Of a stretch of 25,024 nucleotides of DNA, positions 1 to 24,544 are shown one piece after another. Where the stretch lies: the IMG/VR virus record IMGVR_UViG_3300042521_002270, positions 1-25,024 of that record. One strand, 5' to 3'. This DNA comes from a virus. Under the pieces are notes generated by a model. The model made no database searches. It had not been told where the DNA came from and saw only the letters and a program-made list of their open reading frames with translations. The position numbers and the translations under genes were made by a program. Numbering within the stretch: position 1 is the first letter of the stretch; each line of letters begins with the position of its first letter.

Positions 1-117
1 AGGGCTAGGTACTGGGCTAGGCACCGGACTTGGTACTGGGCTAGGCACCGGACTTGGTACTGGGCTAGGCACCGGACTTGGTACTGGGCTAGGCACCGGA
101 CTTGGTACTGGACTTGG
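1..117. repeat. 24-bp tandem repeat encoding PSPVPSPV
   Basis: About four and a half copies of a 24-base unit (plus-strand form GGTACTGGGCTAGGCACCGG followed by ACTT), nearly identical, with a 12-base half-unit that matches at protein level (PSPV). The array runs off the left edge, so its copy number is unknown. It is in frame within the partial gene at 1-855. Near-identity at the DNA level points to recent expansion by slippage or recombination. Confidence 0.93.
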
Positions 118-855
118 TATATCACATAGATATCCACATAGATATCTACCGATGCCTTGATAAAAATAGTTAACTGTTGATGATGTATTGTTGGTGTTCA
201 ATTCAAACCCATTTACAAAATATGAACCTGACAAATATAAATTGTGGTTACCATCGTCGGCTATATATGCAACTATATCGCCGGTTTGGTTGTTTATTAA
301 AATGCTTTTTGGTCTAATGCGATCACCACTTTGAGTAACATTGAGTGTATAACTTACAAACTTATCGTCAAGATTTAATTGTGCTAACGATGTATCATAT
401 CCGTCAAAACCAAACTGTTGGTATGCATTGTTATAATTATTATAATACATCTTTTTTATTGTATTATAAACTTGTCCTTGATATGTTCCGTCCAAATTAG
501 TAGGATTTGTAAGAGGATTATAATTTGGGTCACCAACAGGGTAAAATACAGAACTTGAAGGTATATATAAACCTAATCTGAAAGACGGATTGTTTTGATC
601 AGTAAATGGAGAGCAGGCTAAAAATCCATTTGTATTGTATGTTGAACCATCACATACATAATTAATTGTAGCAAACGATCCTGTTTGTAAACTATTGTAG
701 TTGTAATCACATTCCTGTATAGGAATGAGCAACGGAAAATCATACGTACCGTCACTAGCTAGAATGAGGTCGTAAAATATATTATCAGAAACCTTTTTCT
801 TAGCTACTGCAAATGTAGTAATCTGTATATCTTGATTTTTGAGAAATTTAATCAT
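1..855 (-). CDS. Partial phage structural protein ending in a Pro-Ser-Pro-Val repeat
   Basis: The frame is open from an ATG at 855 to the left edge, giving 285 residues with no stop; the C-terminus lies outside the window. It begins MIKFLKNQDIQITTFAVAKK. The body is rich in Asn, Tyr, Ser and Gly, like the neighbouring virion proteins. After a short Cys-containing stretch (RYLCGYLCD) it becomes an uninterrupted PSPV repeat of about 39 residues that runs to the edge. Such proline-rich tracts usually form stiff extended linkers, so a stalk or linker leading to a distal domain is plausible, but that is inference. I do not recognise the N-terminal family. It lies 35 bases downstream of the structural gene ending at 891. 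It has no Shine-Dalgarno sequence but has TATTTATA five bases before the ATG. A tail-fibre or baseplate-attached role is the best guess from position. Confidence 0.85.
   Translation of the reverse strand, partial: MIKFLKNQDIQITTFAVAKKKVSDNIFYDLILASDGTYDFPLLIPIQECDYNYNSLQTGSFATINYVCDGSTYNTNGFLACSPFTDQNNPSFRLGLYIPSSSVFYPVGDPNYNPLTNPTNLDGTYQGQVYNTIKKMYYNNYNNAYQQFGFDGYDTSLAQLNLDDKFVSYTLNVTQSGDRIRPKSILINNQTGDIVAYIADDGNHNLYLSGSYFVNGFELNTNNTSSTVNYFYQGIGRYLCGYLCDIPSPVPSPVPSPVPSPVPSPVPSPVPSPVPSPVPSPVPSP
123..146. repeat. Perfect 12-bp direct duplication
   Basis: CACATAGATATC occurs twice back to back on the plus strand. On the coding strand this gives the repeated residues YLCG and YLCD. It lies just before the PSPV array in the same gene and places two Cys residues four positions apart. 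Confidence 0.85.
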
Positions 856-860
856 CCCAA

Positions 861-868
861 TATAAATA
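861..868 (-). promoter_or_regulatory. TAYTTATA start-proximal box (TATTTATA)
   Basis: TATTTATA on the minus strand, five bases (TTGGG) before the ATG at 855. One of seven exact matches placed 3-7 bases before a start codon. This one lies within a run of structural genes, with no terminator before it. Confidence 0.5.
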
Positions 869-9318: not shown

Positions 9319-11298
9319 TTATACTACAAGTCCTTTAATGTCAGAATCCATATATTTAACTTCAAATATTGCTGGATCTTTTGGTGGATATACAATATTG
9401 TTTTGTGTTGCAATGCTTATATCATAAGCAACAGGTGAATAATTGCCATCATCAATCGTTAAATTTTTGATCGCAATTTCACTCACAGACTGCACACCTT
9501 CGTTTTGCATTATTTCAAAGTTGATTTGACTAAGGTTAATTGGTTGATTGAAACTCCAGTTATCAATATCAAAAAAGCTCTTTACGGATTGAATACAGTT
9601 ATTTAATACTTCCGATTTATTGAATCCTTTAAATACAGTAATTTTAAATTGCACTCCGATGTTAATAATATACCCATCTACTATATTAATTTTATCCGTT
9701 AAGATCTTATAATTTTGTAAATATGCAATTAAGTTTTGAAGTGTTGCTGGATTAATTTGAGTTAGATTTTTATTTGAATCATAACCTAAAAGGTACAAAT
9801 TATTCGTAAGTGGATTATTTGATTGTAAGAATTTTCTTCTATCAAGTGGATTTAAAGGAGTTAAATCAACTGTAGAATTATTCTGTGTATTTACTACACC
9901 TGTAATTAATCCATTGTATTGTACTTCTCTCGTCAAATTGCTTTGAACATATGCTTTTGCGATATTTCCAAGTTGTGGTGGTAAAGCATAAACTCTCAAC
10001 AAGAAATCATCTTCGGTAACCATACGATTCTGAGTAGAAAAATTCAATATAGCATTTTGTCTAATCTCTTCATTAGATTCAGCATCGTCGCCACCTGTAG
10101 AAGATTCTACGTTATTTACACGTAAAGAGTTCTTAATTGTGTTTAATAGGGTAACTTCACTATCAGTTAAAGAGGTTACGTCATTCAAATAAGATACGGC
10201 AATTATACTTTTAATTTCTCCAGAATTAACATTAGAATTTAATCCGCCCCCAATGATATATGAAATGGTCAATGTGGTGTTGGCCGGAGAAACTCCGTAT
10301 GAATTTGCTTTCAACACATTCGTGTTATCCAACGAAATGTTTAGATTTTTTAGATTTGAAAGAGATACTCCAATGTTACTTGAATTTGGAATGATGACCG
10401 TATTATCATAGTTCTCAGTATTAGCACCAAATTGAATTGATGTTTGATTGTTTTCATCAATCGTGGTTACAAATCGTTTTTCAGTTCGTAGATATTTTAA
10501 AACCTTTGGAGTTTCACTTCTATATTGAGAAAGAGTTTGATTGTTTAATGGTACGTTATCTAATTCAATAGGAATTGTATCTTGAGCCAAGTAATCAACT
10601 TCATAATAGTTGTTATTATTAGAATCAATTACACTTACAATTTTCAAAACGTTAGTTTCATCTAACTTAATAGAATAAAATGGAACTTGATCGCCAACTG
10701 AAAACTGTTTTATTATAACTCTACCTGAATAAGCCTTGGCTGATTTCTTTATCAAATAAAACTGTGGTGCGCCTGTGTTGTCACGACTATATACGGTTAT
10801 TTCTCTAGGTGAAAACTTTGTATCTTGACTAAAATCTATACTTTCTTCCACTACGAAATTGACTCCTGATACACTAGTTAATTGTGTAAAGGGTTTTAAT
10901 ATCAAACAATAACGTTCGTCTGGACTATAAACATTATCTCTTGAACGTGTCGCTGGTAATAGTTGAAATATATCTACTATAGTGGACGAAGCAGATGCTA
11001 CCTTTGGTTTATAACCCAAGAATTTAGCACCATTTATGATGTTTCTACGATCTTGTGCAAATTGAATAAAACTTTCAAAAAACTGCTGATCCGTATAATA
11101 AGAAAGTACATCTCCAACATATGCTGCTTGTTCAATGAATATTTGACCAGGTGAACTTTCGCTAAAGTCTTTGTAACTTTGTGGGTAATACTGTTTAGTA
11201 AAGTCGATTAGCTGTTGACGTAAAGATGCGAAATCTCTATTAAGATAATTAATATCTTTTGTGTTTGCATTAAACGTTTTGTTAATTAATGTTGACAT
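9319..11298 (-). CDS. gp6: Baseplate wedge protein, gp6 / baseplate J family
   Basis: 659 residues, matching the roughly 660 residues of T4 gp6. The N-terminus has the family style: DINYLNRDFASLRQQLIDFT, SESSPGQIFIEQAAYVGDVL, YTDQQFFESFIQFAQDRRNI and GAKFLGYKP. A later block, NRMVTEDDFLLRVYALPPQL, corresponds to the R-x-V(T)-x-x-D(F/Y) stretch of baseplate J proteins, and the C-terminal third has FDIDNWSFNQPINLSQINFE. In T4, gp6 dimers form the continuous ring linking wedges around the hub, with gp25 and gp7 as partners. Here gp25 lies immediately upstream with a TAATG overlap, and the downstream gene starts one base after its stop. Intact, with no frameshift seen. Assignment is strong from length, motifs and context. 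Confidence 0.93.
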   Translation of the reverse strand: MSTLINKTFNANTKDINYLNRDFASLRQQLIDFTKQYYPQSYKDFSESSPGQIFIEQAAYVGDVLSYYTDQQFFESFIQFAQDRRNIINGAKFLGYKPKVASASSTIVDIFQLLPATRSRDNVYSPDERYCLILKPFTQLTSVSGVNFVVEESIDFSQDTKFSPREITVYSRDNTGAPQFYLIKKSAKAYSGRVIIKQFSVGDQVPFYSIKLDETNVLKIVSVIDSNNNNYYEVDYLAQDTIPIELDNVPLNNQTLSQYRSETPKVLKYLRTEKRFVTTIDENNQTSIQFGANTENYDNTVIIPNSSNIGVSLSNLKNLNISLDNTNVLKANSYGVSPANTTLTISYIIGGGLNSNVNSGEIKSIIAVSYLNDVTSLTDSEVTLLNTIKNSLRVNNVESSTGGDDAESNEEIRQNAILNFSTQNRMVTEDDFLLRVYALPPQLGNIAKAYVQSNLTREVQYNGLITGVVNTQNNSTVDLTPLNPLDRRKFLQSNNPLTNNLYLLGYDSNKNLTQINPATLQNLIAYLQNYKILTDKINIVDGYIINIGVQFKITVFKGFNKSEVLNNCIQSVKSFFDIDNWSFNQPINLSQINFEIMQNEGVQSVSEIAIKNLTIDDGNYSPVAYDISIATQNNIVYPPKDPAIFEVKYMDSDIKGLVV

Positions 11299-11699
11299 TA
11301 TATTCTGTTACCTTCCAAGTTAAGTTGGGTTTTACCTATAGTATTATTGTATCTAAATGTAATACTTATAAATATTGAATTTCTATCATTATTCTCTGGT
11401 TGTTGTGGGGATAATTCAACACTTAATATGGTTGTACCGTTGATGTATTTATCAACATCACGTTGTACTACATCAACAATCATATCATTTGTAACATCAC
11501 TTTCAATTGGTTGAAACAATAAATTATATAATCCAGAACCAAAACTATTATTAAATCTACGTTCTCCTGGTACAGTTAATAATAGATTTTGTATATTATC
11601 AGCTATTTGAGAAATAGTATCTTTATTAGTAGCAAAATAACCCTCGTTACCAAGTTGAATTGGTAAAGACAAACCTATTGCTTTTTTAGGGGTTGCCAT
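11298..11699 (-). CDS. gp25: Baseplate wedge protein, GPW/gp25 family
   Basis: 133 residues, the usual size of gp25 proteins. The diagnostic stretch is LLLTVPGERRFNNSFGSGLY followed by NLLFQPIE: the PGER motif and the FGS-x-L-x-x-LLF block of the GPW/gp25 family. The last strand region, ISITFRYNNT, also fits. In T4 and related contractile systems gp25 sits with gp6 and gp7 at the wedge core and helps start sheath assembly. Its stop overlaps the ATG of gp6 (TAATG), the conserved gp25-gp6 order. The start follows the upstream stop by eight bases, with AAGG upstream that could act as a weak Shine-Dalgarno. Confidence 0.94.
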   Translation of the reverse strand: MATPKKAIGLSLPIQLGNEGYFATNKDTISQIADNIQNLLLTVPGERRFNNSFGSGLYNLLFQPIESDVTNDMIVDVVQRDVDKYINGTTILSVELSPQQPENNDRNSIFISITFRYNNTIGKTQLNLEGNRI

Positions 11700-12195: not shown

Positions 12196-13887
12196 TTAAC
12201 CTAACGGAGATTTAGGTAAATTTAATAAATCTGTTGCACCTTTTGGATTTGATGGTCTTGGTATTTTGACAGTCTTGATACGTGGTGTACTAGGTGGTTT
12301 TGGTATATTTGGTTTAGGCATTCCTTTTTGTACACTTGCTAATTTAGCTGCAGCTGCCCCAACGGCTCCTCCTGAAACGGCACCAATTACAGCTCCTTTT
12401 CCACCTCCAACTATTCCTCCGATTCCGGCCCCTAACCCACCGCCTGCTAAAGCTCCTCCAGTTACACCACCAACGGATAATCCGGCACCAAGTGCAGTAC
12501 CACTTAATCCACCTATTAACGCTCCCTTACCACCACCGGCTAATGCTCCAATACCGGCTCCAAGAGCACCACCTAACAATCCACCTTTTAATCCTTTAGC
12601 TAATTCAGACGTAGATTCAACCATACCTGTTTTAGCATTTACAAATTTATCATTTCCAGCTATAGATTCAGGACTAAACTTATCTGGAGACCAATCCTTA
12701 CCCAACCCATCTGGTTTAATACCTTTAGGATTTAGTTTATCAAATACTTTACCAGCTACACCACCCGCAACTAATCCGGCACCGGCCCCAATCAATGCGC
12801 CTTTTCCTCCGCCTGCTAATGCACCTATACCGGCTCCTAATGCACCTCCGCCAATTGCACCCTTAACTCCAGATGACAAATTACTAAGTACACCACCAGC
12901 TGATTCTTGAGCACCACCAATTGCACTTTGTGCTTGACCAACAGCTCCATCTAATGCACCTTGAGCTTGACCAGCTGCGCCTTGTACTTGGCTAGTCAAT
13001 CCACCGGCCGCACTTTGTACTTGAGACGCAGCATTACTTGCTGCGCCTTGCGCTTGTGATGCTGCTTGTTGTGCTGCATTTGCGTCTAACCCCTTTACTT
13101 CTTGGGACGGTAGTTTTAAATTAGGATTGTCTACTACAGGAGCTTTATTTGCTACACCATTAATTGCTTGTGTAGGAGGTCCAGGTAACGCCGGGTCAGG
13201 ATCAGGTAAAAAACAAGCAGGAACATTCTCTTTTTTCCAAGTTCCAGACGAAATATTTTTATCTAAATCGGATTTGATCGATTTCAAAAAGTCATTAATT
13301 TTAGTTTCAGCTCCTTGCAAATTAGAATCGTAACTTGATTCGGGTAGTCTATTATAATTTGTCTGAAATTCAAAATATGAGGTGAAGAATAAGGCGGCCA
13401 AAGATTTGGTCAATAGGGTAGGATCTCCGCCCAACGACGACACTTGAGCAATACAATCTAATTTATCTCTAACCGTTTTTTTAAAAATATCCGTTTCTTC
13501 TAAATTTATTATAATATTACCTTTCATCGTGGTTATACCCGCGATAGGCGTTTTTATTTGATATGCGTCGGTGATATATAAATTATTTATTGAAATTATT
13601 CTAGCAAGTTTTTTAGTAAGATCTTTTTTATAAGTACCAGAACTAAGTTTAACATATCCATTTTGTTCCAGAGATGTTAAATCCGTATAATTTTTATAAA
13701 ACTCATCCCAAGTAAGGATTTGTTTTGGATTCAGAATGGCGTCATTATAGTTAATGGAATCTACATAAAAATCATAATTATACTTATATTTTTTATATGA
13801 TGGTATGAATAAAAAATTTCCACTTGGCAATGTTCTGCCAGAACCTGGTTGTAAGTTGCCAAATATGTCTACTATTTGTAATGCCAT
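12196..13887 (-). CDS. Baseplate-operon protein with Ala/Gln repeats and three glycine-zipper blocks
   Basis: 563 residues. Residues 1-215 are a normal globular N-terminus (starts MALQIVDIFGNLQPGSGRTL; one Cys-containing segment near 144). A Pro-rich hinge (LPDPDPALPGPPTQ) leads to an Ala/Gln/Ser amphipathic repeat (about 268-330, QAASQAQGAASNAAS style). Next come three Gly-x-x-x-Gly-rich blocks at about 342-380, 433-475 and 476-516. The 19-residue string ALGAGIGALAGGGKGALIG occurs identically in blocks one and two. The C-terminus is Lys/Pro-rich (PKPNIPKPPSTPRIKTVKIP). Glycine zippers are known to pack transmembrane helices, so membrane insertion is possible. It lies three bases after the gp5-like hub gene, so association with hub or spike delivery is inferred. 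An AGGA upstream of the ATG may act as ribosome site. The family is not recognised. Confidence 0.88.
   Translation of the reverse strand: MALQIVDIFGNLQPGSGRTLPSGNFLFIPSYKKYKYNYDFYVDSINYNDAILNPKQILTWDEFYKNYTDLTSLEQNGYVKLSSGTYKKDLTKKLARIISINNLYITDAYQIKTPIAGITTMKGNIIINLEETDIFKKTVRDKLDCIAQVSSLGGDPTLLTKSLAALFFTSYFEFQTNYNRLPESSYDSNLQGAETKINDFLKSIKSDLDKNISSGTWKKENVPACFLPDPDPALPGPPTQAINGVANKAPVVDNPNLKLPSQEVKGLDANAAQQAASQAQGAASNAASQVQSAAGGLTSQVQGAAGQAQGALDGAVGQAQSAIGGAQESAGGVLSNLSSGVKGAIGGGALGAGIGALAGGGKGALIGAGAGLVAGGVAGKVFDKLNPKGIKPDGLGKDWSPDKFSPESIAGNDKFVNAKTGMVESTSELAKGLKGGLLGGALGAGIGALAGGGKGALIGGLSGTALGAGLSVGGVTGGALAGGGLGAGIGGIVGGGKGAVIGAVSGGAVGAAAAKLASVQKGMPKPNIPKPPSTPRIKTVKIPRPSNPKGATDLLNLPKSPLG
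12340..12864. repeat. Three protein-level glycine-zipper repeats within the 563-residue gene
   Basis: Blocks lie at about 12748-12864, 12463-12591 and 12340-12462. In blocks one and two, 19 consecutive residues are identical, yet by my hand comparison about 14 of the 19 codons differ synonymously. The DNA copies are therefore old while the protein sequence has been held. Gly/Ala codons also make this stretch visibly richer in G and C than its neighbours. Confidence 0.85.
13630..13637 (-). other. Isolated intragenic TACTTATA
   Basis: An exact TACTTATA occurs here (position within a base or two) inside the 563-residue gene, far from any start codon. It is the only coding-region exact match in this orientation I found by eye and serves as a background example for the start-proximal boxes. 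No function is proposed. Confidence 0.3.
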
Positions 13888-15935: not shown

Positions 15936-15940
15936 ATACC

Positions 15941-15948
15941 TATAAATA
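15941..15948 (-). promoter_or_regulatory. TAYTTATA box (TATTTATA) heading the baseplate operon
   Basis: TATTTATA on the minus strand, five bases (GGTAT) before the ATG at 15935 and directly after the terminator T tract. If the operon is not fed by read-through, the promoter must lie in or next to this box. If it acts like a T4 late box, the mRNA would start at or very near the ATG. Confidence 0.6.
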
Positions 15949-15950
15949 GA

Positions 15951-15976
15951 AAAACCACTCCGTTTGGAGTGGTTTT
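15951..15976 (-). terminator. Intrinsic terminator after the gp55-like gene
   Basis: A perfect 11-bp stem (AAAACCACTCC / GGAGTGGTTTT) with a four-base loop (GTTT), followed on the minus strand by TTTTTCT. It lies 17 bases past the gp55-like stop and could also stop plus-strand transcription. Confidence 0.9.
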
Positions 15977-15992
15977 ATTAACTATTTAGATT

Positions 15993-16973
15993 TTATAATG
16001 TTCCTCTATTACTATAGTTTCTCATTACCAAATTTTGATAACTTTTCATTTTATTGATAACTTTAGTTATTTGTTGAGTCTTACAATTGCTTAATTCTCT
16101 GATATAAAGATATAATGTTTTCTTGTTGAAGTTTTCAATTCTTTCACAGTTTCTGAACAATTCGATTACCGCATATGCTATATTTAGATCTTTTTGTTTA
16201 TTGAATATTTTCATTACATTAGCTTCCCAGTAATTTACTATAAGTTTCATAAATTCTTGGGTCTGAATGTCTTTATGATGTGCATCCTCTGTTTGTAAAC
16301 ATACTGAAGATTCACTTGGGGTTTCGCTAATATCTACGTGTTGATTGAATCTTTTATAGTTGTTATTGTTGTGAAATATTAAATAATTCTTGGCAACAAT
16401 GCTAAAATAACTAAATGCTTTACCTTTACCTGCTTGAAATTTATGAATATTAGTTACTAAATGTGATACTGTTTCTTTTTGAATTTCAATTGGACTATTA
16501 TCAAAGTATGTAAATTTAAATGTATTGAATATATTTTCTACTAATTTTTCAAAACTGAATTTTATTTTATTTTCATAAATCATATTACGTTTGATTTCAT
16601 CTTCTTCTGCGTTGTATTCAATGATAGCATCCTCTGTTTTTTTAGAAAAATAAATTTTTTCTTTCTTATTTCTTCCACGACGTTTTTTGCGTTCTCCATT
16701 AATATCAAATTGAGATTCTTCTTCAGAACCATCTTTAATATTTGCTTCGATTAATTCTGGTTTGATAGAACGTGGAACTTCTATATTAGATGTAGAAGTA
16801 GACTTGGTTGGTTGTTTAGATGGCAACAAAACGCCAATGGTAATTTTTGGTTTCTTTACCTTGGATACTACTTTCTTAAGTTTAGGCTTTATCTTGTTTT
16901 TGACATTCTTTTTTGTCTTAACAGAAGTAACCTTTTTAATCTTCTTATAAGATTTCGTTTTTGTTTTTTTCAT
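15993..16973 (-). CDS. gp55: Putative late sigma factor, gp55-like
   Basis: 326 residues from the ATG at 16973. In-frame ATGs at 17003 and 17000 would add ten residues but deepen the overlap with the preceding gene. The first 50 residues are extremely Lys-rich (MKKTKTKSYKKIKKVTSVKT), then a linker and a second basic patch (GERKKRRGRNKKEK). The core at about 130-240 holds KFQAGKGKAFSYFSIVAKNY followed by LIFHNNNNYKRF, which resembles sigma region 2 as found in T4 gp55-type late factors. T4 gp55 directs host RNA polymerase to late promoters with the box TATAAATA, together with gp33 and gp45. The 326 residues exceed T4 gp55 (185), mostly through the basic N-terminus. It ends at the terminator before the baseplate operon. 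Assignment rests on motif style and context; another DNA-binding factor is possible. Confidence 0.68.
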   Translation of the reverse strand: MKKTKTKSYKKIKKVTSVKTKKNVKNKIKPKLKKVVSKVKKPKITIGVLLPSKQPTKSTSTSNIEVPRSIKPELIEANIKDGSEEESQFDINGERKKRRGRNKKEKIYFSKKTEDAIIEYNAEEDEIKRNMIYENKIKFSFEKLVENIFNTFKFTYFDNSPIEIQKETVSHLVTNIHKFQAGKGKAFSYFSIVAKNYLIFHNNNNYKRFNQHVDISETPSESSVCLQTEDAHHKDIQTQEFMKLIVNYWEANVMKIFNKQKDLNIAYAVIELFRNCERIENFNKKTLYLYIRELSNCKTQQITKVINKMKSYQNLVMRNYSNRGTL

Positions 16974-17259
16974 TAAAATCGGAGGATTTATAATTATCAT
17001 CACTTTGAATTCTAGTATTTGTTATTTCAATGATAGTAAGCAAATCTGTAAATAGAACACCAACATCATCGTCTTTAACAAATATACCTCGGTCATCCAC
17101 AGATTTCAACTTATTATATGTATTTTTTACCAACGATTTAAAATCTACCAACCAACTTTCTAATAAGTCGATCTGATTAAATGCCTTTTTTAGCGAGATT
17201 ACCAAAAAAATATTTAATATTGTTGAAAACAACAATAAAAGTAACAGTATGTATATCAT
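16945..17259 (-). CDS. Small N-terminally anchored membrane protein
   Basis: 104 residues. A single N-terminal transmembrane segment (IYILLLLLLFSTILNIFLVI, residues 2-21) is followed by a Lys residue pair and a soluble helical domain (FNQIDLLESWLVDFKSLVKN) ending in an Asn/Lys-rich tail. The hydrophobic N-terminus lacks a signal-peptidase-like motif, so a membrane anchor with a cytoplasmic domain is likely. The ATG overlaps the preceding stop by one base (TGATG), and the gene's 3' end overlaps the gp55-like start by about 29 bases. It therefore belongs to a three-gene unit with the late sigma candidate. The function is unknown. Confidence 0.8.
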   Translation of the reverse strand: MIYILLLLLLFSTILNIFLVISLKKAFNQIDLLESWLVDFKSLVKNTYNKLKSVDDRGIFVKDDDVGVLFTDLLTIIEITNTRIQSDDNYKSSDFNEKNKNEIL

Positions 17260-17408
17260 CAGTTTAATTCATCTAACGTTTCGTCGTCATCTGCCAATTC
17301 TACATACTCTGATATATAGTCTATAGATTCTTGGATTAAATCCCAATTGGAAGTATCAAACCCACGTTTTAAATTTTTGTACAATTCTAATATTTCTTTT
17401 TCGTCCAT
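17259..17408 (-). CDS. 49-residue acidic protein, first gene of the gp55-like operon
   Basis: A 49-residue frame beginning MDEKEILELYKNLKRGFDTS, then NWDLIQESIDYISEYVELAD and DDETLDELN. It is acidic and helical with no Cys or membrane segment. Support for reality: the stop overlaps the next ATG by one base (TGATG), the residue composition is protein-like, and an exact TACTTATA box lies five bases before the ATG, as at other genes here. No Shine-Dalgarno is seen. A small regulator or accessory protein is possible; there is no family assignment. Confidence 0.75.
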   Translation of the reverse strand: MDEKEILELYKNLKRGFDTSNWDLIQESIDYISEYVELADDDETLDELN

Positions 17409-17413
17409 ATACG

Positions 17414-17421
17414 TATAAGTA
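17414..17421 (-). promoter_or_regulatory. TAYTTATA box (TACTTATA) heading the gp55-like operon
   Basis: TACTTATA on the minus strand, five bases (CGTAT) before the ATG of the 49-residue gene at 17408. It would place the late sigma candidate under the same control as the genes it may switch on. Confidence 0.5.
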
Positions 17422-17432
17422 CATATATAGAT

Positions 17433-17453
17433 AAAAAATTAATTAAATTTTTT
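17433..17453 (-). terminator. Possible weak A/T-only hairpin
   Basis: An 8-bp A/T stem (AAAAAATT / AATTTTTT) with a five-base loop follows the stop of the membrane coiled-coil gene. It contains no G-C pairs, so termination would be weak at best. It sits in the same relative position, just before a TAYTTATA box, as the strong terminators elsewhere. Confidence 0.25.
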
Positions 17454-17457
17454 TATT

Positions 17458-18519
17458 TTAAAAACTAAACATTCCTCTAACACCACTTGGTTTGTAAATT
17501 GGTTTTTCTATTATCTTTTGTACAGGCTTCTCAACTATCTTCTCAACTATCCTTTCCACTTCCACAGGCTTCTCAACTTCAACTATTTTCTCAACAACCT
17601 TTTCTACTTCTACAGGCTTCTCAACTTCAACTATTTTTTCAACAACCTTTTCAACAAAAGTTTCTTTAGGTTCAGTTACAGGTTCTTCTTTTTTAATTGG
17701 TTTTTGATCTTTATAAATTTCGTAATCATTAGTTTCTTCGTCATAAACTTTGTTTGTAGATATGTTATAAGCCAATAACAAAATAACAGCTAATGGATCG
17801 AATACAGCAATCAACACTGCAATAAACCACTTTACAACATTTTGTATTGTAGTATCAAATTGATCGGCAACGAATTTAAATGTTGTAATATCCTTCTTTT
17901 GACTATTATCCACTTTCAATTTAAAAATTCCTTCTTCAATTTCAGAAACTTTATCACTATAACGTTTTAGTTTTTCATTTTCTCCGTCCAATTGTTTGTT
18001 TAAATCTCCGATTTGATCGTTAATTTGATTTTGAATATTCTGTAATTGTATTGGATTTCGTGCAATTAAAACATTGGTCAATACACCATTTAGTCTGGAT
18101 TCTTGTGAACTTCTAAGAGCATATATCTTTTCTATCGACTTTTTAGTAGCTTCAATTTTACTATTTTCATCCAATTTTTGAACTTCCATTGTAGAAATTT
18201 TATTAATCGATAGTTCTGTTTCTAATGAAGACTTTTGAAATGCAGCTGTTAGAAATCCAAATATACCCAATGATGTAATTGCCATTAACGCAAATACAGC
18301 AATTATCATATATGTCCTCATTAATATATTAGCTTTGTTCCAATATCTAAACAACCATGAAGTTGTTACGAGTTTACCTAATTCTAGTGATGATGCCATT
18401 ATCATAGCAGCAATAGTTGCGCCTGAAAATAGTAAACCTATACCATATACGCTAAAATAAGCAGCACATCCTGCGATTAGAAGTGATGTAAATATTACCA
18501 AATGTTTAAACTGTATCAT
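17458..18519 (-). CDS. Four-segment membrane protein with coiled coil and Glu-Lys-Val repeats
   Basis: 353 residues. Predicted membrane segments lie at about 6-24 (LVIFTSLLIAGCAAYFSVYG), 26-47, 68-93 (MIIAVFALMAITSLGIFGFL) and 232-252 (WFIAVLIAVFDPLAVILLLA). Between segments three and four lies a coiled coil of about 110 residues (for example QLQNIQNQINDQIGDLNKQL). The C-terminal tail (289-342) is a repeat of VEK/IVE/VEKPVE units and ends GVRGMFSF. I recall unnamed membrane proteins of this layout in T4-like phages of aquatic bacteria, but the function is unknown; host membrane remodelling or lysis control is only speculation. It starts about 16 bases after the Hsp20 terminator, with TATTTATA three bases before the ATG and no Shine-Dalgarno. 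Confidence 0.88.
   Translation of the reverse strand: MIQFKHLVIFTSLLIAGCAAYFSVYGIGLLFSGATIAAMIMASSLELGKLVTTSWLFRYWNKANILMRTYMIIAVFALMAITSLGIFGFLTAAFQKSSLETELSINKISTMEVQKLDENSKIEATKKSIEKIYALRSSQESRLNGVLTNVLIARNPIQLQNIQNQINDQIGDLNKQLDGENEKLKRYSDKVSEIEEGIFKLKVDNSQKKDITTFKFVADQFDTTIQNVVKWFIAVLIAVFDPLAVILLLAYNISTNKVYDEETNDYEIYKDQKPIKKEEPVTEPKETFVEKVVEKIVEVEKPVEVEKVVEKIVEVEKPVEVERIVEKIVEKPVQKIIEKPIYKPSGVRGMFSF
17494..17655. repeat. In-frame 48-bp imperfect repeat (VEKIVEVEKPVEVEKV)
   Basis: Residues 289-342 of the membrane coiled-coil protein repeat a 16-residue unit about twice, with degenerate further copies. At DNA level the CTTCTCAACTTCAACTATTT stretch recurs with few changes, so the copies are recent or still being homogenised. 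The alternating Val/Glu/Lys pattern predicts an extended, charged rod. Confidence 0.85.
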
Positions 18520-18522
18520 ATC

Positions 18523-18530
18523 TATAAATA
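18523..18530 (-). promoter_or_regulatory. TAYTTATA box (TATTTATA) before the membrane coiled-coil gene
   Basis: TATTTATA on the minus strand, three bases (GAT) before the ATG at 18519, between the Hsp20 terminator and the gene. Confidence 0.5.
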
Positions 18531-18543
18531 TCTATAAAATAAA

Positions 18544-18569
18544 AACCCCGTTAATTTAATAACGGGGTT
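18544..18569 (-). terminator. Intrinsic terminator after hsp20
   Basis: A perfect 10-bp stem (AACCCCGTTA / TAACGGGGTT), six-base loop, followed on the minus strand by TTTTTATTTT. It begins 20 bases after the Hsp20 stop. Confidence 0.92.
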
Positions 18570-18589
18570 AATATAACCTTGATTGAATA

Positions 18590-19072
18590 TTAATCAATCT
18601 TTATTTTCTTTGTGACGGGAATTGTTGGTTTTACCTTTGATAGTGTAACCCTTAACAAACCGTTTTCAAATTTTGCTTGAGGTGTAGATTTATCAATTTG
18701 ATCTCCTAGAGTAAAACTACGTTTAAAGCTACTGTGTTTCAATTCTCTACGAATGTACTTACCAGCAAATTCTTTGTCATCAATTTTTTTGATTTTTTGA
18801 CCACTAATAGTAAGTACATTTTCTTGTACTTCTACAGAAACTTCATCTTTAGCTAAACCAGGAATCTCAGCTAAAATTTCTACTCTATCATTATAATCAA
18901 TAACATCTACTCGGGGATAACTTTGTTTTTCAAAGAAACCCACACCCAATTCTTTTGTTAATTCTGGAAATTGATTCGCGAATACTTCATCGAAGACACG
19001 ATCAAATGGAGCTAAAAATTCGTCACGATCAATGTGACGCAATGTAAACGGACTATATTTAATTACTGACAT
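18590..19072 (-). CDS. hsp20: Small heat-shock protein, Hsp20 / alpha-crystallin family
   Basis: 160 residues, a normal length. The alpha-crystallin domain spans about 51-148: YPRVDVIDYNDRVEILAEIP, GLAKDEVSVEVQENVLTISG, and the signature A-x-x-x-N-G-L-L at 133-140 (AKFENGLL). The C-terminal I-x-V motif (IPV, 151-153) that locks oligomers is present. The N-terminus (FDRVFDEVFANQFPEL) is typical. Such proteins hold unfolding proteins without ATP; hsp20 genes are known in T4-like cyanophages, where a role in virion protein folding or scaffold support has been suggested. It is a single-gene unit with its own sigma-70-type promoter 100-130 bases upstream, a purine-rich ribosome site (GAAAGGTAAAT before ATG) and a terminator, unlike the neighbouring structural genes. 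Confidence 0.97.
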   Translation of the reverse strand: MSVIKYSPFTLRHIDRDEFLAPFDRVFDEVFANQFPELTKELGVGFFEKQSYPRVDVIDYNDRVEILAEIPGLAKDEVSVEVQENVLTISGQKIKKIDDKEFAGKYIRRELKHSSFKRSFTLGDQIDKSTPQAKFENGLLRVTLSKVKPTIPVTKKIKID

Positions 19073-19174
19073 ATATTTACCTTTCTTTTTAATAATTCTA
19101 TTGAACTTATTAACCTAATAGCCTCACTCGAGCACTATAGTAGATAGTGTCTAATAGATCACCATCTAAGAATA

Positions 19175-19203
19175 TATATAAACTAAATTTGAATAGATGT
19201 CAA
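19175..19203 (-). promoter_or_regulatory. Sigma-70-type promoter for hsp20
   Basis: On the minus strand: TTGACA at 19203-19198, a 17-base spacer, TATATA at 19180-19175. The expected start near 19168 gives a leader of about 95 bases before the ATG at 19072. The leader contains a small hairpin, CACTAT-ctact-ATAGTG. I see no clear sequence sequestering the AAAGG ribosome site. The -35 overlaps the end of the fibre gene region at 19209 only marginally. Confidence 0.75.
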
Positions 19204-19208
19204 GAAAA

Positions 19209-20807
19209 TTAAAAATATCCAACAGCATATCCATTACATGTATTGGATCCTACATTGGTTGTATGTACCACTACCGAAATAGTACCTGTGGTAACGGCAG
19301 CTGGAGGTATACCTTCGATTGTGAAATGTGTAATTATATCACCCGAATCAGGATTATAATAATATCCTTTTTGCCATCCCCAACTTGAATACACATTTGA
19401 AGAAACTAATGTGCCACCCAAACTTACACCGTTTAGTGTTACACCATTATTTTCACTTACATTAAAACTACCTTCTATTTTAAACCATTTTAATGTTTTA
19501 CCAGCTGGTACAACTATATTTCCGAATGTATTTGCTGTGCCTGTACTAACAGGTGTTCCACCGCCTGTTTTTTGTACATAATAAGCATTTGCAAATATAT
19601 CTCCTCCGCCAGTTGATATGTAACTAGCCGTTGATGCCAATATGCTATAACTACTACTTACAGAATAACTTGAAGTACCATTATACGATACTTTTTTTCC
19701 GGTACCTTTAAAATTAGTAATGTTGTCAACTCCTCTAAAAGACCCGGTAACGCCTCTATTAACATTCAATTTACCATGTATGTAGGTATTACCACTTCCA
19801 GATACAAAGAATGTTTTTGTAAATCCGGTTGTAGTACTTCCAGATCCATAATTAACCAATATAGCCGTAGCACGATTTTCAACTGTTGCAGGTATACTCC
19901 ATGGACCTTCGCCACTACCACTAAACATGTTTATTTGTAGTTTGGCTCTTAAATATTTATCGAATGATCCTGTTGGTTCATTTGGTGGTTGTACACCTAT
20001 ACCAATAGCACCATCTCTAGATGGTGTATTGTTAGTCATATATGGCCAAAAATAGAAACCATTTCTTCTTTGTACCATACCATAAATAATGGCCTCTCCA
20101 GCTGTCGCCCGAGATACAACGCTTGAATTAGAAATTTCGTATGATCCAATCGGCGTTGTAAATGTTAAACTACCACTTCTGTTAGAAAAAATAGTCCATC
20201 CGTCACGATTTGGATAAGCTTCAGAGCTATTTAAATTAAATAGACTGATTGCAGCCTGATTATATTGAACACCTCCACTAGTTAATCCACGACTTGCGAC
20301 GTTTAAATAATTAAACGGTAAAGATGATGAAATACTAAGAGATTTTACACCAGAAGTGTTGTTATCGAATAATAAACCAGGAGCACTTATTAATCGTGTA
20401 CCGTCAAAGTAGCCTACTCCTTTTGTTGTGTTCTGTGTAGTTTGTAATAAATAAGATGATGTTTTGCTAAAGTTTGTTATGCCGTAAAAACTACCACTAA
20501 AACTTCCACTCACACTTGCGTTTTTGCCAATAAATTTGCCATAGTGACTACCACTAAAACTACCACTTAATTTTCCTTTAAAACTGCCTGTAAAACTACC
20601 ACTGAATCTTCCTAAAAAACTACCTGTATAAGATCCAGTTAATTTGTTAAGTGCATTTTTTAAATCTGCTAAAGTACTACGTCTTGAAGTTAAACTAGAA
20701 CCGGATTCAACGGTAAGAAAAAAATCGTTGGCATCAAGATTTTGATATCTTACAAGTTTACTTACCTTAATTGGGACTACATTTAAATTGTTACAAGGAC
20801 TTGGCAT
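19209..20807 (-). CDS. Tail-fibre-like protein with N-terminal docking module and GSF repeats
   Basis: 532 residues. The first 50 (PCNNLNVVPIKVSKLVRYQN, then LDANDFFLTVESG..SRRSTLADLKNAL) match the starts of the proteins at 20822-21160 and, more distantly, 21518-22843, so this is probably a shared docking module. Residues 57-110 are a run of (S/T)GSFxGx repeats. The middle is a long Ser/Gly/Asn-rich beta-type region (SGSGNTYIHGKLNVNRGVTG). The C-terminal 130 residues (GNIVVPAGKTLKWFKIEGSF) look like a globular beta domain ending NTCNGYAVGYF, the likely receptor-binding tip. There is no enzyme motif. It is the last gene of the fibre block; downstream comes the Hsp20 promoter. TACTTATA lies six bases before the ATG. 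Fibre identity is inferred from repeats, module and neighbours. Confidence 0.85.
   Translation of the reverse strand: MPSPCNNLNVVPIKVSKLVRYQNLDANDFFLTVESGSSLTSRRSTLADLKNALNKLTGSYTGSFLGRFSGSFTGSFKGKLSGSFSGSHYGKFIGKNASVSGSFSGSFYGITNFSKTSSYLLQTTQNTTKGVGYFDGTRLISAPGLLFDNNTSGVKSLSISSSLPFNYLNVASRGLTSGGVQYNQAAISLFNLNSSEAYPNRDGWTIFSNRSGSLTFTTPIGSYEISNSSVVSRATAGEAIIYGMVQRRNGFYFWPYMTNNTPSRDGAIGIGVQPPNEPTGSFDKYLRAKLQINMFSGSGEGPWSIPATVENRATAILVNYGSGSTTTGFTKTFFVSGSGNTYIHGKLNVNRGVTGSFRGVDNITNFKGTGKKVSYNGTSSYSVSSSYSILASTASYISTGGGDIFANAYYVQKTGGGTPVSTGTANTFGNIVVPAGKTLKWFKIEGSFNVSENNGVTLNGVSLGGTLVSSNVYSSWGWQKGYYYNPDSGDIITHFTIEGIPPAAVTTGTISVVVHTTNVGSNTCNGYAVGYF
20478..20639. repeat. GSF-type repeat array in the fibre gene
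   Basis: Residues 57-110 of the 532-residue protein repeat (S/T)GSFxG(K/R/S) about nine times. On the plus strand this appears as recurring AAACTACCACT / AAACTACCTGT strings. Similar runs occur near 8750-8960 in the DNRLRE-like gene. Confidence 0.85.
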
Positions 20808-20813
20808 ATATTA

Positions 20814-20821
20814 TATAAGTA
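20814..20821 (-). promoter_or_regulatory. TAYTTATA box (TACTTATA) before the 532-residue fibre gene
   Basis: TACTTATA on the minus strand, six bases (TAATAT) before the ATG at 20807. The box fills most of the 14-base gap after the preceding stop. Confidence 0.5.
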
Positions 20822-21160
20822 TCAAAGATTGTATAATAAAATTTTATATGTAGTTCCGTTGATTTTAACGGGTAAATAATTACTGGTTACAGATCCGGCT
20901 GTATTTGCTAGAGTCAATGATCCTGTAAATCCGGATTGAATATTTAAACTTCCTGTAAACGAACCTTTATAAGAACCATTTACAGTCCCAAAATAAGTTA
21001 TCAAACTACTACATGTAGCTTTTTTAGAATAATAAACGTTGTTTACTGAATCGAATTGTGAAATTGCAATTAAATCGTTATTGTTAATACCTGTAGATGC
21101 GGCTAACTGACTTATTCTCAGCGTTTTTACGTTTAAATTATTACAAGGACTCGTTGCCAT
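20822..21160 (-). CDS. Short fibre-module protein sharing the N-terminal docking region
   Basis: 112 residues: in effect the docking module plus two GSF repeats. The start, SPCNNLNVKTLRISQLAAST, then GINNNDLIAISQ, parallels the 532-residue fibre (PCNNLNVVPIKVSKL..LDANDFFLTV). After ATCSSLITYFG come NGSYKGSFTGSLNIQSGFTG and a short hydrophobic end (INGTTYKILLYNL). It has its own TACTTATA box four bases before the ATG and an intact reading frame, so it is not simply a fragment. A short adaptor or collar-like subunit for fibres, or a remnant of a former full-length fibre, are both possible. Confidence 0.83.
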   Translation of the reverse strand: MATSPCNNLNVKTLRISQLAASTGINNNDLIAISQFDSVNNVYYSKKATCSSLITYFGTVNGSYKGSFTGSLNIQSGFTGSLTLANTAGSVTSNYLPVKINGTTYKILLYNL

Positions 21161-21164
21161 ATAT

Positions 21165-21172
21165 TATAAGTA
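21165..21172 (-). promoter_or_regulatory. TAYTTATA box (TACTTATA) before the 112-residue gene
   Basis: TACTTATA on the minus strand, four bases (ATAT) before the ATG at 21160. Confidence 0.5.
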
Positions 21173-21192
21173 TATTAAATTGTTAGTTTATA

Positions 21193-21516
21193 TTAACAAT
21201 TAGTTAATGTTGCTGTTGGAGTGGATCGTGGAGCGGTACCAGATAAAGGATCTCCTCCATTTACTAATGTTAAAGCAGTAGCATCCGATGGTAAACATGA
21301 TGTAATTGTAACTGAAACTCCTCCAGGACATCCATCCAATGTACTATAAAAAATAGCAGATCCGTTTCCGGCACTCACGGATGTGTAACTATATTCAACT
21401 TCAGCTTGTCCATTGGCACACACGGCAGCATTAGATGTAGTTGTACCTGAAAATATTTTGTAAGTAACACCCGGTACGTCATCCACATTTTTCCAAAATG
21501 AAAACCCTTTAATCAT
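21193..21516 (-). CDS. Small Cys-containing beta-rich protein following the fibre gene
   Basis: 107 residues from the ATG at 21516. A longer frame from 21600 exists but overlaps the fibre gene by over 80 bases; the internal start is preferred because it recreates the TAATATG stop-start junction seen elsewhere. The sequence (MIKGFSFWKNVDDVPGVTYK, then VCANGQAEVEYSYTSVSAGN and GCPGGVSVTITSC) is rich in Ser, Thr, Gly and Val with four Cys, suggesting a small beta-sandwich. There is no signal peptide. A fibre tip, decoration or fibre-assembly protein is plausible by position; the family is not recognised. Confidence 0.78.
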   Translation of the reverse strand: MIKGFSFWKNVDDVPGVTYKIFSGTTTSNAAVCANGQAEVEYSYTSVSAGNGSAIFYSTLDGCPGGVSVTITSCLPSDATALTLVNGGDPLSGTAPRSTPTATLTNC

Positions 21517-21517
21517 A

Positions 21518-22843
21518 TTAACTGAAGTTTTGAATTGCTGATGCAAATATTTTTCCCTGAACATTGATAAATGTGAATATATCTTTTTTACCGGCACCAC
21601 TACTTACTGTTGGAACAGCTCCATTTTTCCAATAAATAGATACCGTACCAGTATCATTTAATCCGGTCCACGCTGTTACATTATTACCACTGCCGTTACT
21701 TTCAATTAATATTGTACTGGTCTGACCAGACTTCAATGACATCGTAATTGTACCACTAGAAGACAATTCCAATTTTATTGATCCGAATTTATCCCCATTC
21801 AAAGTACGTGTTTGGCCAGGTGTAGTAATTGTTTTGAGATCTTCATTATTTCTCAAAGAACCTGTAAAAGCACCCCCATCTCCAGAGCTAATATAAAACC
21901 CAGTTTTTGCTCTCAAAGGTAATTCAACAACATAGTCTGATGTGTTATAATAAAAACTATTCACATTTTTAATAACTCTACTACCATCCCAAATTGTTAA
22001 ATAATTTGCAACACCTACTGTACTAGCTGTTATTGGATTGGTCCAAATAGCATCATAATTTGTACCTGAATTTTTAGCTAAAAGTTGATATCTAGTACCA
22101 CCGATTGGTATACCATTTACAATAGTTCCGCCAGTAGCAGCATAAGCAGCCGTAAGAGCTTGATTTGCATAAGAACTAGTACCATAAAAATATGCTGATG
22201 AAACTCCTCCGTTTGGTGTTGTAGTAGTATTTCCACTTTCTAATACTTTTGTTGTTGTAGAATTATAAACATCTCCGGTTAAATTACCAGTTACATTTCC
22301 AGTTAAACTACCGACAAATCCAGTATTTGCTGTTATTGTTGTTCCAGTAATAACCGCGGCGGATGTAACACCTATTGTAGTCGCATCTATAGCGCCGCCG
22401 TTTATATCTACAGTAGTAAATGTACTTGTACCAGCTGACGTTATATCTCCGAGAATTATAGAAGAAAACGTTTTTGAACCACCCACCGTCTGTGTACCTG
22501 AAGTTCTTACTACAGTAGAATCTACGGCTAAAGATCTATTTGACGTTAATATACCCCCACCACTTAATCCATCTCCGGCAGTTATGGTTACATTAGTTCC
22601 TGTAGAGGTACCATATACATTTCCATAAAAACTACCCGTAAATTTATTATTGACGTTTGTAAATCTTACCTGATTAATAAACGGATTGAAACTAGCAGCG
22701 CTTAAAATAGAACTTGTTAACGCTGAATACGAAGTCCGTTTAGTAATCCCGTTCGACTGAATTAAAAATTCATCGGTCGCGCTAATGATTGATGTAGCGG
22801 GTAAACTAGAAATTAATCGTCCGTTATTAGATAATACTGCCAT
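21518..22843 (-). CDS. Tail-fibre protein with docking module and beta-helical repeats
   Basis: 441 residues. The N-terminus (NNGRLISSLPATSIISATDE, then FLIQSNGITKRTSYSALTSS) is a divergent copy of the docking module of the two downstream proteins. Then come GSFYGNVYG and the well-known fibre block AGDGLSGGGILTSNRSLAVD, TQTVGGSKTFSS, followed by repeats of T-x-D-I-N-G and FVGSLTGNVTGNLTGDV type, as in trimeric beta-helical fibres. The C-terminal region (GSIKLELSSSGTITMSLKSG, VTAWTGLNDTGTVSIYWKNG) is probably the receptor-binding or trimer-tip domain. It is first in the fibre block, 18 bases after phoH, with TATTTATA seven bases before the ATG. Its stop is followed after one base by the next ATG. 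Long-tail-fibre function is inferred from repeat style. Confidence 0.88.
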   Translation of the reverse strand: MAVLSNNGRLISSLPATSIISATDEFLIQSNGITKRTSYSALTSSILSAASFNPFINQVRFTNVNNKFTGSFYGNVYGTSTGTNVTITAGDGLSGGGILTSNRSLAVDSTVVRTSGTQTVGGSKTFSSIILGDITSAGTSTFTTVDINGGAIDATTIGVTSAAVITGTTITANTGFVGSLTGNVTGNLTGDVYNSTTTKVLESGNTTTTPNGGVSSAYFYGTSSYANQALTAAYAATGGTIVNGIPIGGTRYQLLAKNSGTNYDAIWTNPITASTVGVANYLTIWDGSRVIKNVNSFYYNTSDYVVELPLRAKTGFYISSGDGGAFTGSLRNNEDLKTITTPGQTRTLNGDKFGSIKLELSSSGTITMSLKSGQTSTILIESNGSGNNVTAWTGLNDTGTVSIYWKNGAVPTVSSGAGKKDIFTFINVQGKIFASAIQNFS

Positions 22844-22850
22844 AATAATA

Positions 22851-22858
22851 TATAAATA
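22851..22858 (-). promoter_or_regulatory. TAYTTATA box (TATTTATA) heading the fibre block
   Basis: TATTTATA on the minus strand, seven bases before the ATG at 22843, within the 18-base gap after the PhoH stop. Confidence 0.5.
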
Positions 22859-22861
22859 TAA

Positions 22862-23581
22862 TTATAGCAAAGTTTTAAGTTTTTTTAATACAAATTTGAC
22901 TAATCCACTTCTTACAATATCATCTTCACCGAATTTAAATACATAAACTCCATTGTTTCTACTTTCCTCGTCGTCAAATACATTCATCATCGGTACAAAC
23001 CCACTTTTACCATTAATATCACTTTGATCTGGATCACCGCAAATAAACAATTTACTAAATTCACCTACACGCGTGATTAACGTAGTAAGTTCTTTCTTAG
23101 TCATGTTTTGTGCTTCATCTGCTACAATACATTTAGCATTCCAACTTAATCCTCGTAAAAAGTTTATTGGAAATCCATGAATACGTTCTTCTTTTTTTAA
23201 TTTATCAATATCATGTTTTGGCAATAATTCTTCCAATTTATCAATAAGCGGTTGAATATATGGACTCATTTTTTCATCCATTTCCCCAGGCAAAAACCCT
23301 AACTTACTATCGCTGCTTTCAACTATACTTCTAACATATACTATTTCACTCACTCTTTTTTGATTTAATAAATATAATCCGGCTAATATACTAGTAAATG
23401 TTTTGGAAGTACCGGCAGGGCCTGATATGAAGACACATTTTGTATTTTTATTTTTTAATAATTCTAGTAATTCAATTTGTTTTGGTGTTAGTTCACGTTG
23501 ATCAATTTTAACATCATCTCTGATCTTTGCGTTTTGATGAACCTTTGGGCTTGTGTCTGATTTCTTGTTGTTTTTGCTCAT
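22862..23581 (-). CDS. phoH: PhoH-family P-loop ATPase
   Basis: 239 residues. Walker A is GPAGTSKT at 54-61, Walker B IVADEAQN at 152-159, and a sensor-like GDPDQSD at 182-188. The intervening LGFLPGEMDEKMSPYIQPLI is the characteristic PhoH segment, so the core is complete. The first 25 residues are Lys/Asn-rich and poorly conserved in style. PhoH proteins are putative RNA-linked ATPases widespread in phages of aquatic bacteria; their role in infection is unsettled. The chosen ATG overlaps the upstream gene by 68 bases; a later non-ATG start would reduce this but is not obvious. There is no Shine-Dalgarno, so coupling with the upstream gene is likely. Confidence 0.95.
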   Translation of the reverse strand: MSKNNKKSDTSPKVHQNAKIRDDVKIDQRELTPKQIELLELLKNKNTKCVFISGPAGTSKTFTSILAGLYLLNQKRVSEIVYVRSIVESSDSKLGFLPGEMDEKMSPYIQPLIDKLEELLPKHDIDKLKKEERIHGFPINFLRGLSWNAKCIVADEAQNMTKKELTTLITRVGEFSKLFICGDPDQSDINGKSGFVPMMNVFDDEESRNNGVYVFKFGEDDIVRSGLVKFVLKKLKTLL

Positions 23582-23876
23582 GTTGTTCTATTTGTTTTTT
23601 TAATTTAACTAACCGATCACAAAACTCATATTGTTCAGATTTGATGTAATAATCAAAAATGTTATCAATATTATCTTTAAAAGTGGATTGATCCAGTATA
23701 ACGATGAAGTCTGAATCCTCAAAATTAAACACTTCGACAGACGAAAATCCATTGCTTAGTGCGTATTGCACCGATAAAACAATTTGTTCTGTTAATTTGA
23801 CTCTGTTATTTTTTATGAAGATTTCCATTTCCTCATAATTTGATGGCAAAGTCAGTACACGAAATGATTCTGTCAT
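23514..23876 (-). CDS. Small unknown protein upstream of phoH
   Basis: 120 residues beginning MTESFRVLTLPSNYEEMEIF. It is a mixed alpha/beta N-terminus followed by a long charged helix (QYEFCDRLVKLKKQIEQHEQ) and a very basic tail (IRHKPKGSSKRKDQR) encoded within the region that overlaps phoH. There is no enzyme motif or membrane segment. It starts about 27 bases after the terminator at 23907-23932. TATTTATT, one base off the TAYTTATA box, lies six bases before the ATG. The long out-of-frame overlap with phoH suggests cotranscription and coupled translation. No family was recognised. Confidence 0.82.
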   Translation of the reverse strand: MTESFRVLTLPSNYEEMEIFIKNNRVKLTEQIVLSVQYALSNGFSSVEVFNFEDSDFIVILDQSTFKDNIDNIFDYYIKSEQYEFCDRLVKLKKQIEQHEQKQQEIRHKPKGSSKRKDQR

Positions 23877-23882
23877 TCACTT

Positions 23883-23890
23883 AATAAATA
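23883..23890 (-). promoter_or_regulatory. Near-match TAYTTATA box (TATTTATT)
   Basis: TATTTATT on the minus strand, six bases (AAGTGA) before the ATG at 23876 and just after a terminator. Seven of eight positions match the box. Confidence 0.35.
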
Positions 23891-23906: not shown

Positions 23907-23932
23907 AAAGACGTTACATTAGTAACGTCTTT
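23907..23932 (-). terminator. Intrinsic terminator after the two small early-type genes
   Basis: A perfect 11-bp stem (AAAGACGTTAC / GTAACGTCTTT) with loop ATTA, followed on the minus strand by a run of T (TTTTTTTGT). It begins 22 bases past the stop of the 75-residue gene. Confidence 0.92.
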
Positions 23933-24182: not shown

Positions 24183-24373
24183 TATTTACCTTTCACTTCA
24201 ACAATTTCAAGTTTACTGCCATCGGGCCAACGTGTAATTACCTTGTTCCAATGATCATATTCTGACTTAGCTTCATCTTTACTTAGATAATCCAAATCAG
24301 AAACTCTCATGCCATTTCTAATTACGGCATACTTTGATTGACGTTCGTTTGATATAATATTCTTCACTGACAT
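24182..24373 (-). CDS. 63-residue protein, unknown, first gene after a sigma-70 promoter
   Basis: It begins MSVKNIISNERQSKYAVIRN, then GMRVSDLDYLSKDEAKSEYD, HWNKVITRWPDGSKLEIVEV. The pattern (strand, strand, helix, strand) suggests a tiny alpha/beta fold. It lies about 70 bases downstream of a consensus promoter and shares its stop with the next ATG. No Shine-Dalgarno or TAYTTATA is visible before its own ATG. It is likely expressed early by host RNA polymerase; the role is unknown. Confidence 0.8.
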   Translation of the reverse strand: MSVKNIISNERQSKYAVIRNGMRVSDLDYLSKDEAKSEYDHWNKVITRWPDGSKLEIVEVKGK

Positions 24374-24544
24374 ATTTACAACTATATTTTGTGTTTAATA
24401 ATTGGTATACATATACTAGTCAAAGATTACCAGCCTTAGACTATAATCTAATTATACATACACAGTAGTCATTGTCAAATTTAATTTTAATCATAAAATT
24501 TATAATAACTAAAATCTAACTGACATACATATGTATTGCTAAAT
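24374..24544. other. Divergent intergenic control region
   Basis: 171 bases without a gene between divergent genes. It holds the consensus minus-strand promoter at 24451-24478 and a second weaker minus candidate, TTGACT at 24423-24418, 17-base spacer, TATTAA at 24400-24395. For the plus gene a TATAAT at 24501-24506 lies about 38 bases before its ATG, but the matching -35 position is poor. Confidence 0.5.
24451..24478 (-). promoter_or_regulatory. Consensus sigma-70 promoter
   Basis: On the minus strand TTGACA at 24478-24473, a 16-base spacer, and TATAAT at 24456-24451: both hexamers are perfect. The expected start is near 24444, giving a leader of about 70 bases to the ATG at 24373. It suits early expression by the unmodified host polymerase. 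Confidence 0.82.

Follow-up and report, generated by a model that had tools for sequence, protein, structure and literature searches.

Do the late genes of a group of large T4-like phages begin their transcripts at the start codon itself? The question is raised by a 25,024-base pair (bp) virus record from IMG/VR (IMGVR_UViG_3300042521_002270), hereafter the window, in which almost every gene lies on the minus strand and the box TAYTTATA stands just before the ATG of seven genes. Late phage genes need high-level translation, and T4 uses leaders with Shine-Dalgarno (SD) sites. In contrast to this textbook relative, large freshwater phages of the group have the box about 4 bases ahead of the start codon in many structural genes. 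We consider it highly probable, judging from the sequences compared here, that the box is a late -10 element sitting at the ATG, read with the help of a gp55-like sigma factor, and that the late messenger RNAs (mRNAs) are leaderless.

If this is true, the virion would be built from leaderless mRNAs, leaderless translation would be able to carry heavy late expression, and the search for hosts would be narrowed to bacteria whose ribosomes accept leaderless mRNA well. A natural series for studying leader loss would also be at hand, since Flavobacterium phage immuto (MW353175) and Microcystis phage Mel-JY01 (PP395634) should use this box with leaders and the clade without. For phage annotation the box is, in addition, a marker of start codons in a group that has over a hundred IMG/VR relatives.

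Position of the box in the window and in related genomes

The seven exact TAYTTATA boxes reported in the initial annotation were all recovered at their coordinates on the minus strand, with gaps of 5, 5, 3, 7, 5, 6 and 4 nucleotides (nt) to the ATG, as was a near match whose last-position T is allowed by the matrix fitted below (0.30). The box genes had been described as lacking a clear SD, and indeed none has an SD-like 4-mer at the usual distance; such motifs stand instead before operon-internal starts and before the Hsp20 gene. The boxes and the hairpins beside them are as follows, where exact matches are counted over distinct orthologous upstream regions.

861..868, minus strand: TATTTATA box, 5 nt before the ATG at 855; exact in 16/19 regions
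15941..15948, minus strand: TATTTATA box, 5 nt before the ATG at 15935, directly 3' of a terminator-like hairpin; exact in 15/25 and near-exact in 21/25 regions
15950..15974, minus strand: terminator-like hairpin AACCACTCC-AAAC-GGAGTGGTT with a T run, ending just before the 15941 box; stem bases vary on both sides among relatives
17414..17421, minus strand: TACTTATA box, 5 nt before the ATG at 17408 of a short open reading frame (ORF; 17282-17408); exact in only 3/12 regions
18523..18530, minus strand: TATTTATA box, 3 nt before the ATG at 18519; exact in 17/25 regions
18544..18569, minus strand: terminator-like hairpin AACCCCGTTA-...-TAACGGGGTT, 3' of Hsp20 and just upstream of the 18523 box
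20814..20821, minus strand: TACTTATA box, 6 nt before the ATG at 20807 of a tail-fibre-like gene; the box overlaps the stop codon of the gene before it
21165..21172, minus strand: TACTTATA box, 4 nt before the ATG at 21160 of a tail-fibre-like gene; exact in 7/10 regions
22851..22858, minus strand: TATTTATA box, 7 nt before the ATG at 22843 of a tail-fibre-like gene
23883..23890, minus strand: near-match box TATTTATT, 6 nt before the ATG at 23876, 3' of a terminator-like hairpin
23907..23932, minus strand: terminator-like hairpin AAAGACGTTAC-TAAT-GTAACGTCTTT, upstream of the 23883 box, read from the sequence

The raw count of TAYTTATA on both strands of the window (13 against 9.7 expected) is not unusual and is uninformative. 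Within coding sequence a single exact minus-strand match had been claimed; there are two, at 11367-11374 and 13629-13636. Counting boxes relative to starts gave a very different result: 7 of 25 starts carry one at a gap of 3-7 nt, against a mean of 0.144 and a maximum of 3 in 5000 dinucleotide shuffles of the same upstream regions. Since it is placement before the ATG, and not the raw count, that exceeds chance, the observation is real.

We extended the count to ten IMG/VR relatives of 60-304 kb, which served for genome-scale tests and whose genes are our own calls (ATG only, longest ORF) and not curated annotation. TATTTATA occurs in 122 of 1042 distinct upstream regions, where shuffling gives 2.65 +/- 1.66 (maximum 7 in 100). 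An unbiased k-mer search over gaps 2-9, from which the window was left out, ranked TATTTATA first of all 8-mers with 120 genes, compared with 4 at a far upstream position and 0.3 (scaled) at internal in-frame ATGs. The gap distribution peaks at 4 nt (26, 52 and 31 at 3, 4 and 5 nt). In nearly all of 21 relatives, the pattern box-N3-8-ATG followed the main gene strand and exceeded a reversed-pattern control. A matrix fitted to 268 aligned sites has the consensus MTAYTTATW, with information within the box and none at the -35 position, and assigns a box to about 22-43% of starts per genome.

Among orthologous starts of the genes at 855, 18519 and 15935 the box is conserved amid changing flanking sequence; no gp6, gp25 or Hsp20 orthologous start has an exact box. 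In the relative G001, the box genes include those for the head maturation protease, head-tail adaptor and endonuclease VII, and the box-less set includes DNA polymerase, clamp loader, helicase and ribonucleotide reductase.

A candidate sigma factor as reader of the box

We propose that MTAYTTATW would act as the -10 element of phage late promoters without a -35 element, and that it would be read by RNA polymerase together with a sigma factor of the phage, a remote relative of T4 gp55. In the clade this element would have been shifted against the start codon, to a usual gap of 3-5 nt; transcription would start at the A of AUG or a few nt from it, and late, mostly structural genes would be translated from leaderless mRNAs. 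The window holds one candidate for the sigma factor.

15993..16973, minus strand: sigma-70-family gene, remote relative of T4 gp55; likely box reader, by co-occurrence

Family members of this ORF are also found in immuto, Mel-JY01 and the uncultured phage LR756508. Searches of the gene against PHROGs and Pfam at normal thresholds returned no match, and family-level searches were needed. The family members match the sigma70-ECF model (6.4e-6), and their profile aligns to the gp55 family over region 2 with a probability of 85.7; the PHROG late-sigma profile matches only the immuto homolog (0.008). Over the C-terminal 222 residues, identity reaches 73-74% in relatives that have 52% in gp6. A profile search of solved structures found no sigma factor. 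The AlphaFold model of the gene is modest (mean predicted local distance difference test score 70); most of the structures that it matches are sigma factors, though each match is weak by itself (best PDB E 0.027).

This protein is likely to read the box, a conclusion drawn from its co-occurrence with it. It is also conceivable, if rather unlikely, that the box is a true promoter read by a host sigma or by some other phage factor, the mRNAs still being leaderless. The assignment to 15993-16973 combines remote similarity with co-occurrence, and some host-type promoters of the clade likewise sit at the ATG (see below), both of which leave room for another reader. Against it, the box sites hold no -35 information, a TTGACA-spaced -10 lies within 220 nt upstream of only 10 box genes, and phages that infect hosts as different as Flavobacterium and Microcystis have the box in common, along with the sigma family.

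Testing the box as a promoter against a translation signal

The initial annotation named as its main alternative an A/U-rich translation signal. On this reading the box would be a docking site for the ribosome or S1 at the SD position of longer mRNAs, with no promoter involved. The gap of 3-7 nt is indeed the spacing of an SD, and the box genes have no SD; because the two positions coincide, spacing alone cannot decide. Five tests do decide, on terminators, operon structure, upstream sequence, the SDs of distant boxes and the spacing in relatives.

A GC hairpin with a T-rich tail ends within 40 nt of the ATG at 33 starts, which include many orthologs and by our reading represent roughly ten independent gene families. 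The box lies between hairpin and ATG at 30 of the 33 (29 with the box at the ATG, one with a box and an SD leader). If these hairpins terminate transcription, the mRNA of the next gene must therefore begin within the remaining 14-37 nt. The box is found at 0/332 starts lying no more than 5 nt from the upstream gene, versus 89/450 starts at least 20 nt away (P=1e-23), and SD motifs are present in both classes.

Two A/T-rich bands are centred about 16 and 28 bp upstream of the box (z 7.7, 98 deduplicated sites); they were first noticed in one alignment, with windows chosen post hoc, and were retested on deduplicated, split and control sets. They lie at about -29 and -41 relative to the expected start, one helical turn apart. 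The bands are seen at box sites without any hairpin (z 7.0), and persist when G001 and the other records are analysed separately. When the box stands 10-45 nt from the ATG they are present again (z 4.2, n=36), and 78 coding copies of the same 8-mer lack them (z -0.5); it follows that the bands are anchored to the box rather than the ATG. In Mel-JY01 it is mainly the nearer band that is seen (P=0.018, n=12).

Among far boxes, at 17-30 nt, 8 of 14 have an SD between box and ATG (TATTTATAaacgaaagaaaggtacataattATG in G004 is one such case), versus 1 of 135 near-box genes, a scarcity due in part to the box occupying the SD position. Boxes at gaps of 10-16 nt come largely from a few orthologous gene families and are weak evidence for a third spacing.

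A translation signal is hard to reconcile with these results, and we regard it as quite improbable. Operon-internal starts, where SDs do occur, never have the box; terminators stand directly upstream of it; the bands, which reach up to 29 bp upstream, track it rather than the ATG; boxes in immuto and Mel-JY01 lie mostly 10-43 nt from the ATG, and the far class in the clade has an SD in between; and the signal is a fixed 8-mer, which is more specific than a mere richness in A/U. The same tests favour the late promoter with leaderless mRNA suggested in the initial annotation. The annotation had further called the box a diverged T4 box. Its promoter character is supported, but TATTTATA is the reverse complement of the T4 sequence TATAAATA and not a near copy of it.

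Given that exact complementarity, the box could be serving the opposite strand, as a TATAAATA promoter of T4 type from which antisense or divergent RNA is made. Such an arrangement has very little to recommend it, since the position is locked to the downstream ATG, box orientation tracks the gene strand, the gene-facing TATAARTA is not enriched in the ten relatives (3 at gap 3-7 vs 126), and the A/T bands are on the gene-distal side of the box, where a sense promoter would be expected to have them. Chance placement is ruled out by the shuffle counts (7 vs 0.144; 122 vs 2.65).

Transcript start and leaderless messages

The element, its lock on the ATG, the bands anchored to it, its place between terminator and ATG and its use with leaders in relatives can be read directly from the genomes; from these we infer the start nucleotide, the late timing in the clade and leaderless translation. 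The T4 late box occupies -13 to -6 (PMC1524935), a register in which, with a gap of 5, +1 falls on the A of ATG. For the modal gap, 4 nt, we expect either a register about one base shorter, or a flexible one, or selection of the A, with a predicted leader of 0 to a few nt. Messages of box genes should thus start at the start codon, without a leader or ribosome-binding site. A mark of this kind has been proposed for bacterial leaderless genes, namely a -10-like signal whose first T lies about 12 nt before the start codon (PMC3160421).

Several points weigh against the late promoter with leaderless mRNAs. The T4 register at the modal gap would put +1 on the U of AUG. The link between sigma factor and box is by co-occurrence only, and the kinship of the 15993-16973 protein to gp55 is remote. 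LR756508 has a sigma homolog, yet shows no visible enrichment of the TATTTATA box in the 220 kb examined. The A/T bands are not seen at immuto boxes. In G001 the major head protein and terminase belong to the box-less set, perhaps because these genes lie inside operons or have non-consensus boxes. The case is, moreover, built wholly on sequence. With these points taken into account, leaderless expression from a late promoter remains strongly supported and, in our judgement, very probable.

Promoters of a second type were also seen close to start codons. About 40 sigma-70-type promoters (TTGACA-N16-18-TATAAT-like) end 6-13 nt before an ATG in relatives G001-G011, at several times the density found further upstream; no such clustering was found in T4, immuto or Mel-JY01. 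Leaderless starts may accordingly be a tendency of the clade that is not tied to one sigma factor. In G002 and G004 we observed a recurring early start element, TTGACTTTC...TATACT/TATAGT-ATTTCCACG-ATGAA; several of its copies within a single genome are almost identical. The window itself contains two promoters of host type, both followed by long leaders.

19175..19203, minus strand: host-type promoter TTGACA-17-TATATA of the box-less Hsp20 gene, with a long leader and an SD (AAAGAAAGGT)
24451-24478, minus strand: host-type promoter TTGACA-16-TATAAT of the gene at 24373, with a 77-nt leader

As the Hsp20 gene and the gene at 24373 carry long leaders, leaderless starts are not universal in the clade. 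Taken with the operon-internal SDs, these promoters suggest that the host has ordinary sigma-70 promoters and uses SD sites. We lean, by a modest degree, towards a broader picture in which a whole clade of large T4-like phages would be leaderless for its late genes and for part of its genes with host-type promoters, two unrelated promoter types would both start at the AUG, a diverged gp55-like sigma factor would prefer the reverse complement of the T4 box, and A/T tracts one and two helical turns upstream would help.

Gene content and relatives of the window

The T4-like character of the window is seen in two baseplate genes.

9319-11298: gp6-like baseplate wedge gene (T4-like)
11298-11699: gp25-like baseplate wedge gene (T4-like)

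PhoH and Hsp20 genes are also present. The gp6-like protein is 36-39% identical to those of the closest named phages, which are Mel-JY01, LR756508 (484 kb) and immuto; the over a hundred IMG/VR relatives are closer. In search of a host, we looked for a gp6 relative in GTDB genomes and for psbA, and found neither.

Two genes downstream of boxes have features of their own. The gene at 1-855 (minus strand) crosses the window edge inside a PSPV repeat tract (SPVPSPVPSPV...), which is a coding tandem repeat. The conserved gene at 17458-18519 (minus strand), of unassigned function, combines N-terminal hydrophobic segments, a coiled coil and a VEKPVEVEKVVEKIVEVE repeat, and in most relatives appears to have its own terminator-box-ATG promoter.

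Comparison with known systems

T4 late promoters consist of the box TATAAATA at the -10 position without a -35 element, and are read with gp55, gp33 and gp45 (PMC2988020, PMC1524935). The clade resembles them in having an 8-bp A/T box as a putative -10 element, no -35, a position before structural, presumably late, genes and a candidate phage sigma factor. It differs in that TATTTATA is the exact reverse complement, in the box lying 3-7 nt from the ATG with no SD, whereas T4, run as a control in the same unbiased search, returned TATAAATA with leaders and SD, and in the box-anchored A/T bands, of which T4 sites show none. The T4-type clamp domain PF02916, which detects the T4 clamp, was not found in G001, G003, G004, immuto or Mel-JY01; a clamp loader is present in G001.

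Immuto and Mel-JY01, whose late promoters are proposed here, share both the TATTTATA box and the sigma family with the clade. The difference lies in the spacing, since their boxes stand mostly 10-43 nt before the ATG and leaders are expected. The unbiased search placed TATTTATA mostly at gaps of 10-30 in immuto, where the presumed leaders are A-rich, and it lies mostly at gaps of 27-43, often with an SD, in Mel-JY01. Immuto boxes precede terminase, portal, tail sheath, tail completion and hub genes among others; in its ortholog of the 15935 gene, a gap of 13 separates box and start.

The late promoters of the giant phage AR9 (AACA-N6-TA/G) are likewise short and phage-specific, but AR9 has an element of its own, a phage-encoded multisubunit polymerase and long 5' untranslated regions of 26-491 nt (PMC5312081). 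Host sigma-70 promoters differ through their -35 TTGACA at 16-18 bp spacing, for which the clade box sites hold no information. Our search for TATTTATA together with late promoter and phage found nothing among open-licence papers, which is weak evidence of novelty. Bacterial leaderless genes led by a TA-type -10 element have its first T about 12 nt before the start (PMC3160421), which is matched by a box of 8 plus the modal gap of 4, and they too have no SD; the clade differs in that these are phage late genes with a phage-type box and not the host TANNNT element. The proposed clade promoter combines features of a T4 late promoter with those of a TA-led leaderless gene, and it is by its box sequence and by the leader that it stands outside the T4 system.

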